From NCBI GenBank assembly GCA_025782575.1, contig JALGYY010000017.1, positions 111,884 through 175,883 on the forward strand: a DNA stretch of 64,000 nt, written 5' to 3'. Shown here piece after piece: positions 1-4,611 of this stretch; within the stretch, counting starts at the first letter, position 1; the number at the start of each line of letters is the position of its first letter. Origin of the DNA: a bacterium. Lineage in GTDB: Bacteria; Orphanbacterota; Orphanbacteria; Orphanbacterales; Orphanbacteraceae. The notes below the pieces were generated by a model. The model was not told the DNA's origin. It ran no database searches and saw nothing but the letters and a program-made list of their open reading frames with translations. A program made the position numbers and the translations under genes.

Positions 1-1
1 G

Positions 2-379
2 AATCGGCTTCGGCTCTTCGACTTTCCCGAAATGATCCGGAATCGTCCCGTGATCGCCTGGTCGGCCGGCGCCATGGTCCTCGGGGAGAGAGTCGTCCTC
101 TTTCACGACAAACCACCCCAGGGTGCCGGGAACGCGGAGGCGCTCGAAAACGGCCTCGCCGTTTATAGAGATGTGCTTCCGTTTCCCCACGCCAGACGTC
201 GCCTCATGCTGGACGACCCCATTCGGGTCCGCTGCATGGCCCGTCGCTTCGCCCCACTGCTTTGCGTTCCTTTGAACGAAGGGGACCGCATCGATCTCAC
301 GCATGGATCGCTCGAATCACCGGCTGGAGTGATGTCACTCTCCGAAGCGGGCAACATCGAACCTGCGGGGGCGGCGTGA
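2..379 (+). CDS. S51-family peptidase (cyanophycinase/dipeptidase E-like), 5' partial
   Basis: The reading frame is open from the left edge, so only the C-terminal part (about 125 residues) is visible. Near its start it carries the motif VIAWSAGAMVLGE. The G/W-S-A-G-A elbow is the nucleophile-serine signature of the S51 family (dipeptidase E, cyanophycinase), which has a class-I glutamine-amidotransferase-like fold. The family hydrolyses dipeptides or isopeptide-type bonds. An in-frame ATG at 32 lies just before this motif but would remove most of the fold, so the true start is outside the window. The stop codon overlaps the GTG start of the next gene by 4 bases (GTGA), implying translational coupling with the Fes-like esterase. 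The exact substrate is unknown. Family assignment is good from the serine motif but rests on a fragment. Confidence 0.7.
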   Translation, partial: NRLRLFDFPEMIRNRPVIAWSAGAMVLGERVVLFHDKPPQGAGNAEALENGLAVYRDVLPFPHARRRLMLDDPIRVRCMARRFAPLLCVPLNEGDRIDLTHGSLESPAGVMSLSEAGNIEPAGAA

Positions 380-1539
380 ATCCCGTGGCCTCCCATCGCG
401 GCGACCAGCTTGCCATCGGTGCCCTCCTCGAGAACGGACCACCATCCCCGGCCGACGTGGATCGCTTTCTTTCCAAGCACACGATTCCGATTGTCGAAGG
501 GACGCACTGTACGTTTCTTTACAGGGGCGAGGCGGACGCCGTCCGGCTCCGCCACTTCATTTTCGGATTGCCCTCCACCCAACCGTTTCATCGGATCCCT
601 CATACTGATCTGTGGTACCAGATCATCGAGATTCCGACGAACTCCCGCGTGGAATACAAGCTCGAAGTCATCGCCGGAGGGGAGGGACACTGGATCGAAG
701 ATCCACTGAACCCTCTTCGAGCACGCGATCCTTTCGGCGCGAATTCGGTTTGCCACGGGACGGGCTACGAGGTACCGGAGTGGACCATTCCCGATCCTGA
801 TGCACGAAGCGGAACCCTGGAAGAGATACGCATTCGGAGCGGCGCGTTCCACCGGGACTGTGGCGTCACCATGTATCTGCCCGCACGCTTCAGGAAGACG
901 CGTCGTTACCCTCTTCTCGTCGTGCATGACGGGAATGATTATCTGGAGTATTCCGGACTCAAGACCGTGCTCGACAATCTGATCCACAGGCTGGAAGTAG
1001 CCGACCTGATTGTGGCTCTCACCACTCCCCGGGAACGGCTTCTGGAGTACGCCGATCATGAAGCGCACGCCCGATTCATTTGCGAGGAACTCGTTCCTCG
1101 TCTCGAGTCCCGCTACCCGCTGATCGGCAAACCACGGGCACGGGGACTGATGGGAGCCAGTTTCGGCGGCGTAGCATCACTCAGCACGGCCGTACGCTAT
1201 CCTGACATGTACGGCCGGCTTCTTTTGCAGTCCGGATCTTTCGCGTTTACCGACATAGGCCCCCATCCGAGGGGTCCTGTTTTCGACCCTGTAGTACAGT
1301 TCATGAATAACTACCGAGAAGACCCCACACGAATCGCGGACAAAGTGTTCGTGAGCTGCGGCACGTACGAGTCGCTGATTTATGAGAACCGATCGATCGT
1401 CCCGATCCTTCAGTCGACCGGTATGGACGTCAAATATGTTGAAGCCAGAGACGGGCATAACTGGGAGAACTGGCGGGACCGTCTCCGCGAAGGCCTTTCC
1501 TGGCTCTTTCCCGGGCCTCTCTGGATGATTTACGAGTAG
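376..1539 (+). CDS. Enterochelin-esterase-like alpha/beta hydrolase with N-terminal E-set/CBM48-like domain
   Basis: About 387 residues if translation starts at GTG 376, which overlaps the upstream stop. Longer readings (from 262) would run deep into the S51 gene. Residues about 30-130 resemble the early beta-sandwich domain of Fes/esterase-D proteins. The C-terminal half is an alpha/beta hydrolase with the nucleophile elbow GASFGG (Ser about 262) and the terminal histidine in DGHNWENWR (His about 361), the typical Fes-family HNW..WR ending. No signal peptide is seen, so it should be cytoplasmic. In siderophore systems such enzymes hydrolyse trilactones. No siderophore genes are nearby, so an ester or amide of whatever the adjacent ATP-grasp protein makes is an equally good guess. 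Family assignment is firm; substrate is unknown. Confidence 0.85.
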   Translation: MNPVASHRGDQLAIGALLENGPPSPADVDRFLSKHTIPIVEGTHCTFLYRGEADAVRLRHFIFGLPSTQPFHRIPHTDLWYQIIEIPTNSRVEYKLEVIAGGEGHWIEDPLNPLRARDPFGANSVCHGTGYEVPEWTIPDPDARSGTLEEIRIRSGAFHRDCGVTMYLPARFRKTRRYPLLVVHDGNDYLEYSGLKTVLDNLIHRLEVADLIVALTTPRERLLEYADHEAHARFICEELVPRLESRYPLIGKPRARGLMGASFGGVASLSTAVRYPDMYGRLLLQSGSFAFTDIGPHPRGPVFDPVVQFMNNYREDPTRIADKVFVSCGTYESLIYENRSIVPILQSTGMDVKYVEARDGHNWENWRDRLREGLSWLFPGPLWMIYE

Positions 1540-1570
1540 GGCTGCAAGCTGAACTCCTGAGGTGTTTCCT

Positions 1571-2812
1571 ATGGCCAAGACGACCTCTGTACGCAAAATA
1601 GGCTTATCGCTGGCGGCGGATATCTGCTGGCCCATGTGTTACGAAATGATCATGAAAAGGCTCGATCTCTCCCTTCAGGTCGGGGCTGAAAAGATGCGAT
1701 TCGAAGTCGATCGTCTTTCGATCGAACCATTCCGCCTCCAGCAGGATTCCCGCTACGATGTCGTGATCGATCGCTTGACTCACTGGTATGTGGCAAGCCG
1801 CGAGTGGATCAAGAAGGCCATCATCCTGAACGATCTTTATGTATTCAATAATCCGTGGTCGATTCAATCGATGGAGAAACAGACGTCCTATTGCGCGATG
1901 ATGCGCCTCGGCTTTCCGATTCCGGAGACCTGGCTCCTCCCCCCCAAGAGTTACGCCGATTCGCCCGATCTCCAGAGGACACTCGAGCAGTACGCGCGGC
2001 ACTTCGACTTCGGGCATATCGGCGAATCGATCGGCTATCCCTTCTATATGAAACCCTACGACGGCGGCGCATGGGCGGGCGTAAGTCGCGTCGACAGTGA
2101 TGAATCGTTTCAAAAAGCATATGACGAGAGTGGAATGCGGATCATGAATATCCAGAAGTCGGTCGAGCCGTTCGAGAAATTCGTGCGGTGCATCGGCCTG
2201 GGGCCGCAGATCCGGTTCGTCCGCTACGATCCCGCGGCACCGTTACACGATCGTTATACATTGGATACCGATTTCCTTAGCGACCATGACAAAGCTCACC
2301 TGAAAAACATGACAATGACCATCAACTCATTCTTCGGGTGGGACTTCAATTCCTGCGAGGCTCTTCTTAAGGACGGCGTATGGCATCCGATCGATTTTGC
2401 CAATCCCTGCCCCGATTCGCAGGTAACTTCACTGCACTATCACTTTCCCTGGCTCATCAAAGCGAATATCCGATGGTCAGTCTATTGCGCAGCCACAAAG
2501 AGAAAACTGCGCCCGAACCTCGACTTCTCAAGCTATTATAAAATTGCCGGCAAAAGCCTGTCATTCGAAGAGAAGCTGGAACAATACGGCGAACTTGCTT
2601 CCAAACGGTTCACAGAAGAACGATTCTTCGCGTTCTGCAGGAAGCACCTTCCCCATCTGGATGAGGTAGCATCGGAATTCTTTTCGAGCTCGGATTGTCG
2701 CGACGCGATTCATCAGAAGGTCAGATCCATGTATCCCGATCATGAAATCGAAGAGTTTACGGAACTGTTCTGGGAGCGAATCCAGAAGTGTTTGACCGAT
2801 GAGGAGGCGTAA
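1571..2812 (+). CDS. ATP-grasp domain protein, putative amide/peptide ligase
   Basis: About 413 residues from ATG 1571, preceded by GAGG with an 8-base spacer; an in-frame GTG at 1562 is less well placed. The central segment GYPFYMKPYDGGAWAGVSRV has the lysine and glycine-rich loop of ATP-grasp enzymes. About 100 residues later, a glutamate (NSCEALL) followed by HPIDFANPCPDS matches the metal-binding acidic/Asn arrangement of the second ATP-grasp half. Such enzymes couple ATP hydrolysis to acyl-phosphate formation and amide or thioester bond formation. The N-terminal 100 residues look like a pre-ATP-grasp domain. The gene sits between two alpha/beta hydrolases (31-base and 5-base gaps), so the proteins probably act on the same metabolite. 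The substrate cannot be read from sequence. The specific family is not one I recognise. Confidence 0.75.
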   Translation: MAKTTSVRKIGLSLAADICWPMCYEMIMKRLDLSLQVGAEKMRFEVDRLSIEPFRLQQDSRYDVVIDRLTHWYVASREWIKKAIILNDLYVFNNPWSIQSMEKQTSYCAMMRLGFPIPETWLLPPKSYADSPDLQRTLEQYARHFDFGHIGESIGYPFYMKPYDGGAWAGVSRVDSDESFQKAYDESGMRIMNIQKSVEPFEKFVRCIGLGPQIRFVRYDPAAPLHDRYTLDTDFLSDHDKAHLKNMTMTINSFFGWDFNSCEALLKDGVWHPIDFANPCPDSQVTSLHYHFPWLIKANIRWSVYCAATKRKLRPNLDFSSYYKIAGKSLSFEEKLEQYGELASKRFTEERFFAFCRKHLPHLDEVASEFFSSSDCRDAIHQKVRSMYPDHEIEEFTELFWERIQKCLTDEEA

Positions 2813-2817
2813 GCACG

Positions 2818-3549
2818 ATGAAGAAGAGCGTCCGCTGGTATTCGGAGAGGCTCGAGCAGGATGTGCTGATGGCACGATGGGGAGAGTTCGGGCAGCCTGT
2901 GCTTGTTTTTCCGACCGCAGGCGGAGATGCGGAGGAGATCGAGAGATTCCACATCGTCGACTCCGTTTCGGAACTTCTCGCAGAGGGGCGGGTCAAGATC
3001 TACTCGTGCGACAGCGTTGCCGGCCGGACCTGGCTTGCCAAGCAGGGTTCCCTCGAGTACCGCGCCAGGATGCAGAATCAGTTTCATGAGTACGTGGCCC
3101 GGGAAGTGGTCCCCGCCATTCGGAGCGATTGCGACAATCAGGAGATTCAGGTGATCGCCGCCGGGTCATCGATCGGCGCCCTGAATGCACTGGCCATGCT
3201 CTGCCGCTACCCGGATCTCTTCTCCAGCGCGATCTGTATGAGCGGGACTTACGACCTGGGGAAGATTACCGAAACGAAAGTTACCGAAGATTACTATCAT
3301 GCCTCACCCATTCATTTTCTTCCCGGGCTCGAAGGACCTGTTCTCGAAAAACTTCGTACCCGATTCGTTCTGTTCGCGTCCGGTGAAGGCCGGGCGGAAG
3401 ACATCGGCGAATCCTGGCGTGCCGCCGACCTTCTCGGTTCCAAAGGGGTTCCGAACAGAGTCGACTCCTGGGGCGCGGAGTGGAATCACGACTGGCCTAC
3501 CTGGCGACACATGCTTCCCAAGTATTTGAAAGAGCTTACCGACGACTGA
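2818..3549 (+). CDS. Esterase of the YbbA/COG4947-like alpha/beta hydrolase group
   Basis: A 243-residue alpha/beta hydrolase starting 5 bases after the ATP-grasp stop, so almost certainly co-transcribed. The nucleophile elbow AGSSIGALNA places the catalytic serine at about residue 118, and a late WNHDW motif supplies the likely histidine. It has no N-terminal accessory domain, unlike the Fes-like enzyme two genes upstream. Small esterases of this type are related to esterase D and to the putative esterases next to iron or polyester genes. No signal peptide is seen. Because the same short cluster encodes an S51 peptidase, two esterases and an ATP-grasp ligase, it probably processes a shared ester or peptide product. 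This is inference from position only. Confidence 0.78.
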   Translation: MKKSVRWYSERLEQDVLMARWGEFGQPVLVFPTAGGDAEEIERFHIVDSVSELLAEGRVKIYSCDSVAGRTWLAKQGSLEYRARMQNQFHEYVAREVVPAIRSDCDNQEIQVIAAGSSIGALNALAMLCRYPDLFSSAICMSGTYDLGKITETKVTEDYYHASPIHFLPGLEGPVLEKLRTRFVLFASGEGRAEDIGESWRAADLLGSKGVPNRVDSWGAEWNHDWPTWRHMLPKYLKELTDD

Positions 3550-3556
3550 CTGCGAC

Positions 3557-4570
3557 CTAGGAACGCTCTTCCAGCGCCAGCTCCCTGACTACGACAGCCA
3601 AGGCCTCGACGACAAATGCCATCCTCTCATAGTCGAGCCGGGCGGGCGTGTCATCCTTCGTGTGGTAGGCCCTGTTCCGGAAGAACGCCGTATCGGTGAT
3701 CATCACAGCAGGAAACCCCTCTCGCCAGTAATTCAGGTGGTCGGACAGATCGATCCCATAGACAAGCTTCGGTGGGGCGCAAAACGAATGAACGGGGAGC
3801 GCGGTCGCCCGCATCATTGTCCTCTTGACACGTCGCACATCTCCCCCGCCACCCATATTCCCGATCACAGCTATGAAATTTCCCGCGGAAGGATAGAACG
3901 GTGCAAGCAAAGACAGTGGCAGGATCTGACTCTCTGTTTCGTCAGAAAAATAGCCGATCATTTCGAGACAGATCATGAGACGGACGTCGACTCCCCGCGA
4001 TCGGAGCTGTCTGGCATGAACTGCGCTCCCCATTCGATCGGACCTGAAATGTGGCGGCTCTTCGAGGGTGTAGGCAACCAGTTCGACGGTCATCTCCGGG
4101 GGGCTGCCGCCCAGGATGCGCCCGAGCTCGAGAAGCCCGGCGACACCACTTGCGTTGTCATCAGCGCCCGGCCATTCCCCCGCCGCGTCATAGTGAGCCC
4201 CAACGACGATTCTATCCGACGTCTCTCTTCCAAACCGAACGGTTACGTTCCGATAGGAACAACCATCGACCTCGTACGGCTGGATTGAGACACGCCCTCC
4301 CATCGAGCGGAAATGATCCTCGATATATCCGGCAACCCTGTCGAGCTGGTCGGGATGGGCGGCGTCCCGGGGTAGGAAATCGATGGCGAGTTTCCGGACA
4401 TGTTCCTCGAGTCTGCGAGCGGAGACGACGCCTTCGCTCTCACCCGGCTCCACGAAGAAGACAGGTTGAATGACAACGATCAGCAGCACTGCGATCGCGA
4501 CTAGAACGACCAGCGCGAATCGCATGATCCAGATCATGACTGTTCCAGCCCATGGGAATGATCGATTCAT
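3557..4570 (-). CDS. Membrane-anchored M28-family metallopeptidase
   Basis: About 337 residues. The ATG at 4570 is preceded by GGAG at good spacing; a TTG six codons upstream (4588) is less likely. Residues about 10-40 form one hydrophobic helix, so the catalytic part should face the periplasm. The M28 metal ligands are visible in order: GAHYDA (His), ADDNASG (bridging Asp), TLEEPP (Glu-Glu), CLEMIGY (Glu) and YHTKDDTP (His). This complete set indicates an active two-zinc aminopeptidase or glutaminyl-cyclase-like fold. It is the last gene of the Omp85-DUF4390-NtrY-NtrX-barrel cluster, 41 bases after the barrel gene, and converges on the esterase at 3549 with a 7-base gap. Substrate is unknown. 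Confidence 0.85.
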   Translation of the reverse strand: MNRSFPWAGTVMIWIMRFALVVLVAIAVLLIVVIQPVFFVEPGESEGVVSARRLEEHVRKLAIDFLPRDAAHPDQLDRVAGYIEDHFRSMGGRVSIQPYEVDGCSYRNVTVRFGRETSDRIVVGAHYDAAGEWPGADDNASGVAGLLELGRILGGSPPEMTVELVAYTLEEPPHFRSDRMGSAVHARQLRSRGVDVRLMICLEMIGYFSDETESQILPLSLLAPFYPSAGNFIAVIGNMGGGGDVRRVKRTMMRATALPVHSFCAPPKLVYGIDLSDHLNYWREGFPAVMITDTAFFRNRAYHTKDDTPARLDYERMAFVVEALAVVVRELALEERS

Positions 4571-4611
4571 TTTGCTCTCCAGCGACAACAGCCTTCAGGA
4601 AGAGCAATCTA

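Follow-up and report, generated by a model that had tools for sequence, protein, structure and literature searches.

A divergent locus of ATP-grasp ligases and alpha/beta-hydrolases linked with genes of glycogen synthesis in several bacterial phyla

A divergent block of eight genes and its conservation

The 64,000-nucleotide stretch of DNA analyzed here, which we call the window, comes from a bacterium of the phylum Orphanbacterota (genome G000, contig C2, positions 111884-175883). At its left end are genes for an S51-like protein, a Fes-like serine esterase, an ATP-grasp protein designated AG_D and a second alpha/beta-hydrolase designated EstB, and we find that these belong to a conserved, probably co-transcribed system of ligases and alpha/beta-hydrolases that is tied to glycogen synthesis. 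A sequence-only reading of the window had described the same genes as a tight cluster of four with a 4-base overlap between the S51-like and Fes-like frames, a 31-base gap (counted from the AG_D ATG at 1571) and a 5-base gap between AG_D and EstB, and all frames were confirmed. The four genes are only the right-hand half of a divergent eight-gene block. The window edge cuts the S51-like gene, and in the fetched stretch L002, which includes the region upstream of the window (window position equals L002 position minus 7000), three further ATP-grasp genes, AG_C, AG_B and AG_A, lie upstream together with glgB. The locus, referred to below as the cassette, consists of two divergent operons, AG_B-AG_A-glgB and AG_C-S51-Fes-AG_D-EstB (Table 1). 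AG_C and the S51-like gene also overlap by 4 bases, and the two overlaps of this length suggest translational coupling. A scan of the intergenic region between the operons for promoters and terminators found nothing. The M28-type peptidase and the outer-membrane protein encoded downstream were considered as further members and rejected; since the M28 gene was undetected in three relatives from the same family, the end of the cassette is placed at EstB.

In order to determine how widely this arrangement is conserved, we scanned contigs with AG_D as the query and obtained 36 loci with 56-64% identity, labelled as Planctomycetota, Acidobacteriota, Gemmatimonadota, Myxococcota/Deltaproteobacteria, Krumholzibacteriota, Gammaproteobacteria and Acidimicrobiaceae. 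Most of these records are metagenome bins, so that single odd taxon assignments may be binning errors. The usable set comprises 27 non-redundant loci with enough flanking sequence, the stretch available for each being limited. The S51-like gene adjoins the Fes-like gene in all 27, with the exact 4-base overlap in 18, and within the limited stretch EstB is present in 23 and at least one of AG_A, AG_B and AG_C in 20. The gene set usually keeps the same order across phyla, and the complete block, glgB-AG_A-AG_B / AG_C-S51-Fes-AG_D-EstB, is found in the relatives G001, G002 and G004. The arrangement of S51, Fes, AG_D and EstB is thus far beyond chance. The sequence-only reading had named separation of the four genes in most relatives as evidence that would speak against their connection; they stay together in most of the loci and genomes surveyed, and their order recurs in several phyla. 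Seven families of the cassette are single-copy, correlated and multi-phylum in their distribution. Their pairwise distances all correlate (r 0.59-0.94, p<=0.001 throughout). Joint inheritance predicts such a correlation, which cannot separate co-function from shared species history. Insertions between Fes and AG_D in L006, L007, L022 and L028 appear lineage-specific, judging by gene order and sequence.

Table 1. Coordinates of the cassette, its downstream neighbor and genes of the remote loci (prefix L, fetched stretch; window, position in the window).
Feature	Position	Strand	Remark
glgB	L002:511-2775	minus	true start probably near the last codons of AG_A
AG_A, ATP-grasp, L-amino-acid-ligase-like	L002:2714-3931	minus	
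AG_B, ATP-grasp, L-amino-acid-ligase-like	L002:3949-5169	minus	
Divergent intergenic gap AG_B/AG_C			60 bases
AG_C, ATP-grasp, L-amino-acid-ligase-like	L002:5230-6453	plus	
S51-like, 309 amino acids	L002:6450-7379; 3' part, window 1..379 (frame 2-379)	plus	gene start 550 bases before the window
Fes-like serine esterase	window 376-1539 (L002:7376-8539)	plus	Enterochelin_N/CBM48-like N-domain and CE1/PF00756 catalytic domain
AG_D, ATP-grasp	window 1562-2812, more likely ATG start 1571	plus	RimK/LysX-like fold
EstB, second PF00756 alpha/beta-hydrolase	window 2818-3549	plus	
M28-type peptidase	window 3557-4588	minus	directly 3' of EstB, convergent
GCS2/M29 replacement region	L113:9096-11294; L110:5731-7977		
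U405, family of 405 amino acids	L113:11331-12539 (+); L104:9859-11076; L108:9798-11048; L110:4473-5675 (-)		

Predicted activities of the ligases and hydrolases

AG_D gives only sub-threshold ATP-grasp matches, below every Pfam cut-off, and is counted here as a new, unnamed family. Its predicted model (pLDDT 85) matches RimK best when compared with VIA-align (Z 19.8 over 262 residues), followed by ITPK1 (18.6), synapsin (18), LysX/ArgX (17.5), PPIP5K2 (17.4) and Ddl (17). Invariant in the family are K106 of the linker, K164 of the RAGNYA domain, R209, E266 and the D278-FA-N281 motif, and the catalytic positions are matched in remote homologs as well. AG_D thus has the fold, the two ATP-binding lysines, the arginine and the metal-binding acid/Asn positions by which the ATP-grasp superfamily is recognized. 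The sequence-only reading had regarded a loss of conserved active-site residues as damaging to its proposal; they are invariant, and on this basis AG_D is intact and should bind ATP and metal and form an acyl phosphate. Its sequence neighbors, namely Ddl, RimK and carboxylases, are all acyl-phosphate enzymes. AG_D shares the fold and these positions with RimK, LysX and ArgX, but its identity to them is 12-14%, about 100 further residues form a helical extension at the C-terminus, and a DFAN motif takes the place of the usual ExN. The family is strongly conserved, with about 60% identity between phyla and a mean column identity of 67%.

Membership of the R2K clade was also considered and rejected. 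In that CDC123-like clade of the ATP-grasp superfamily the linker lysine is replaced by a second lysine inside the RAGNYA domain (PMC4431377). AG_D and its remote form AG_D', described below, retain the classical linker lysine (K106, an invariant column), and the R2K_2 match obtained was only weak (E 0.004). Intermediate homologs of AG_D with 29-36% identity occur in two planctomycete genomes (L098:7962-9293, L099:7893-9227 and L100:7950-9422), where no other cassette genes lie nearby.

Both esterases score above the PF00756 cut-off of 22 bits (Fes-like, 77; EstB, 42) and carry the GxSxG serine and the histidine of carbohydrate esterase family 1 (CE1), which are invariant within each family (Ser262 and His361 in Fes-like, Ser118 and His224 in EstB). 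The sequence-only reading had spoken of an ATP-grasp enzyme and three hydrolases of unlike fold; the ATP-grasp enzyme and the hydrolases stand, whereas two of the three hydrolases share the PF00756 fold. The Fes-like model (pLDDT 90) has a two-domain fold whose Z score is 33 for the enterobactin esterase Fes and 28 for CBM48-CE1 polysaccharide esterases, and it shares with Fes and with the CBM48-CE1 feruloyl and acetylxylan esterases a PF00756 domain with conserved Ser and His. Unlike the latter, it is encoded in a glycogen operon and not in a setting of xylan degradation. An enterobactin esterase was rejected: the protein scores 91.5 bits against the NCBIfam model NF007758, which has a cut-off of 222, and, as the sequence-only reading had noted, siderophore genes are missing from the conserved neighbors. 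CE1 enzymes cleave esters of polysaccharides, and the CBM48-like fold of the Fes-like N-domain also occurs in glycogen enzymes.

The remaining ATP-grasp proteins of the cassette resemble L-amino acid ligases. The best solved match of AG_B and AG_C is L-amino acid ligase 4wd3 (RizA), and AG_B also has a sub-threshold match to LAL_C2. RizA and other enzymes of this kind have roles in small peptide antibiotics. Like RizA, BL00235 and BacD, AG_A, AG_B and AG_C are ATP-grasp proteins of about 405 amino acids; here, in contrast, three paralogous clades, each of single origin and each spanning phyla, are encoded together beside glycogen genes with no antibiotic cluster. Linked multi-ligase peptide systems, in which several ATP-grasp or other ligases of one operon are taken to add residues successively, have been described (PMC4431377), and the present locus likewise has several ligases in one operon. 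None of the described systems is tied to glycogen synthesis or has paired PF00756 esterases.

The S51-like protein has a class-I glutamine-amidotransferase-like fold with a WSAGAM nucleophile motif. The member encoded at the window edge scores 18 bits against PF03575, below the cut-off of 23.9, and 25 of the 29 family members match this domain (best, 9e-10). The nucleophile serine, in a GxSAG-type motif, is present in 28 of 29, and the expected second catalytic residue, a histidine, is replaced in five. Compared with Peptidase S51 proteins (PepE, cyanophycinase, DR_1070), with which most members share the PF03575 match and the nucleophile motif, the protein has an additional N-terminal half of about 140 residues. 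We regard it as a remote relative of S51 and class-I amidotransferases; because the expected catalytic His position is variable, its peptidase activity is at most putative. In one locus (L009:5858-6814) alanine takes the place of the nucleophile serine (AWAAGAM), and the protein is possibly inactive in that lineage. The analogy with cyanophycin metabolism drawn by the sequence-only reading finds no support: a CphA-type synthetase combines ATP-grasp and Mur-ligase parts, while all four ATP-grasp proteins here have 405-416 amino acids and no Mur-ligase match, and the S51-like protein is remote from cyanophycinase and varies at its second catalytic position.

Association with glycogen genes and a remote second version

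Unbiased clustering of neighbor genes yielded only two further widely shared families, GlgA (glycogen synthase, 21 loci) and GlgC (ADP-glucose pyrophosphorylase, 14 loci), and GlgA is often encoded exactly between AG_B and AG_C. In 17 of the 27 usable loci, many with short flanks, at least one of glgA, glgB and glgC was found in the flanking sequence that was fetched, and in L003 glgP, glgB, glgA and glgC are all found beside the cassette.

We examined co-occurrence in 196 planctomycete genomes, 43 of which encode AG_D (26 a close form, 17 a remote or partial one). AG_D and EstB accompany each other in 41 of 43 genomes both ways, EstB occurring without AG_D in only two (Fisher p=2.5e-37; this and the following p-values ignore relatedness and hence overstate the strength), and EstB is therefore a near-obligate partner of AG_D. 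The S51-like gene is present in 25 of the 26 genomes with close AG_D and in one other genome (p=2.5e-29). Glycogen synthase follows the same pattern, with glgA in 41 of the 43 AG_D genomes versus 81 of the 153 others (p=3.5e-8). In 15 of the 26 genomes with close AG_D the two genes are no more than 13 kb apart, versus an expectation of about 0.6% for each, and the cassette-linked glgA is often the only one in its genome. Among the seven genomes of the phylum to which the window belongs, the branching enzyme glgB (TIGR01515) is found only in the four with the cassette, once in each and inside the cassette (G000:C2:105424-107280 in the genome of the window). The other three (G003, G005 and G006) are without the cassette and also without a GlgB-type branching enzyme. 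Since the linkage extends across phyla and is seen again within the remote homologs, the association of the cassette with glycogen genes is hard to explain by descent alone.

The remote version, AG_D', is found in other planctomycetes. It has about 320 amino acids and 25-30% identity to AG_D, retains the catalytic columns and is paired with an equally remote EstB (25-30% identity); several of these pairs are located at glgB, glgC or glgA. In some AG_D' loci the L-amino-acid-ligase-like enzymes, S51 and Fes are replaced by a YbdK-type GCS2 carboxylate-amine ligase, an M29 aminopeptidase and a protein that we call U405. The latter is a conserved family with K-P...GGG, ExR and DFN motifs that look ATP-grasp-like, and searches of Pfam and PDB gave no match to it; it occurs with AG_D', in some loci with GCS2 and M29, and near glycogen genes. 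As the other ligases and hydrolases are swapped in some loci of the remote version, the constant core is AG_D, EstB and the glycogen genes, around which ligases and peptidases of the peptide type can be exchanged. This exchange of partners around a constant pair is the strongest hint as to the mechanism.

Possible functions of the locus

Bacterial glycogen is normally described as a plain glucose polymer on which only a few glg enzymes act. That four ligases and three hydrolases are conserved together and tied to glg genes in several phyla implies either a removable group on glycogen or a further compound, for storage or signaling, that is made in parallel with it. We tentatively favor the former, at somewhat less than an even chance: the eight-gene locus would serve glycogen metabolism through an ATP-dependent, covalent and reversible aminoacyl or peptidyl modification of glycogen or an associated carrier. 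AG_A, AG_B and AG_C would assemble a small unit, either an amino acid or a peptide. AG_D would activate a carboxylate as an acyl phosphate and link it through an ester or amide bond to an acceptor, which may be glycogen, a glycogen oligosaccharide, or a protein or carrier belonging to the glycogen particle. The Fes-like enzyme and EstB could then remove or transfer the attached group, the S51-like enzyme could trim or recycle its amino-acid part, and the modification might tune glycogen structure, storage or mobilization. The sequence-only reading had proposed a joint make-and-break pathway; a joint ligase and hydrolase system is well supported, and the make-and-break chemistry that we infer for it is plausible. 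ATP-grasp ligases can form ester bonds, as the microviridin ligase MdnC does, and by analogy this ability, the activity of CE1 enzymes on polysaccharide esters and the CBM48-like N-domain would fit a modification of glycogen without proving it. In its most far-reaching form the proposal is that bacterial glycogen, or its oligosaccharides, would carry amino acids or peptides as a reversible covalent decoration of a kind not described before. AG_D, supplied by the three L-amino-acid-ligase-like enzymes, would write it and dedicated esterases would erase it, and the trait would be ancient, common to several phyla and present in two biochemical versions; this we regard as possible, with considerable reservation.

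Several points weigh against a modification of glycogen. The linkage is evidence of shared physiology and does not identify glycogen as the substrate. For about a third of the loci the flank examined contains no glycogen gene, and in the genome of the window glgA is about 70 kb away from the cassette. In the fold comparison of AG_D, inositol-phosphate kinases come close to RimK (Z 18.6), and the Fes-like protein matches enterobactin esterase better than any other fold, although that enzyme has a CBM48-like N-domain and does not act on a sugar. To our knowledge, neither aminoacylation nor acylation of bacterial glycogen has been reported. The accessible part of a 2024 review of prokaryotic alpha-glucan enzymes mentions neither ATP-grasp nor esterase. 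We did not find the cluster described in open literature that connects ATP-grasp proteins with glycogen, with esterases, with S51 proteins or with L-amino acid ligases, and a mention in an older amidoligase survey (Iyer et al. 2009) is possible.

The chief alternative is that the locus makes and breaks a small compound distinct from glycogen, an amino-acid conjugate or a peptide such as a nitrogen or amino-acid reserve, an osmolyte or a signal, that is merely co-regulated with glycogen in a storage or stationary-phase program. Three L-amino-acid-ligase-like enzymes and an S51-like hydrolase would suit a free oligopeptide, the GCS2 ligase and M29 aminopeptidase of the remote form again indicate peptide chemistry, and some loci are without glycogen neighbors. 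However, two esterases, one with a CBM48-like domain, are ill-suited to a pure peptide store, the core pair in all forms is an ATP-grasp enzyme with an esterase rather than a ligase with a peptidase, and the glg genes of the cassette are often the sole copies in the genome and interleaved in its operons. We consider such a separate compound doubtful, yet a serious contender. The role of RizA-type ligases in peptide antibiotics and the presence of ester-forming MdnC/PsnB-type enzymes among the fold matches of AG_D would also be consistent with a specialized-metabolite cluster for a peptide or peptide-ester natural product, located near glycogen genes by chance. This seems unlikely, as the strong conservation of AG_D and the single-copy, correlated distribution over several phyla look like core physiology, and no transporter, tailoring enzyme or precursor gene is common to the loci; no shared short frame that could be a graspetide precursor stood out in the neighbor-gene clustering, which was not a systematic search for short precursor genes.

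Still less probable, in our view, is that AG_D is a kinase of the ITPK/PPIP5K type and phosphorylates glycogen or a glycogen precursor on a sugar hydroxyl, the esterases acting elsewhere. Phosphorylation of glycogen and starch exists (for example by glucan water dikinase), and the Z scores for ITPK1 and PPIP5K2 are close to that for RimK; on the other side, the sequence neighbors of AG_D form acyl phosphates, and its conserved partner EstB is an alpha/beta-hydrolase and not a phosphatase. Whether the product is a group on glycogen or a second compound, either answer would assign a function to several large uncharacterized families. The cassette is present in a cultured strain with a complete genome, 'Saltatorellus ferox' Poly30, and is therefore directly testable.

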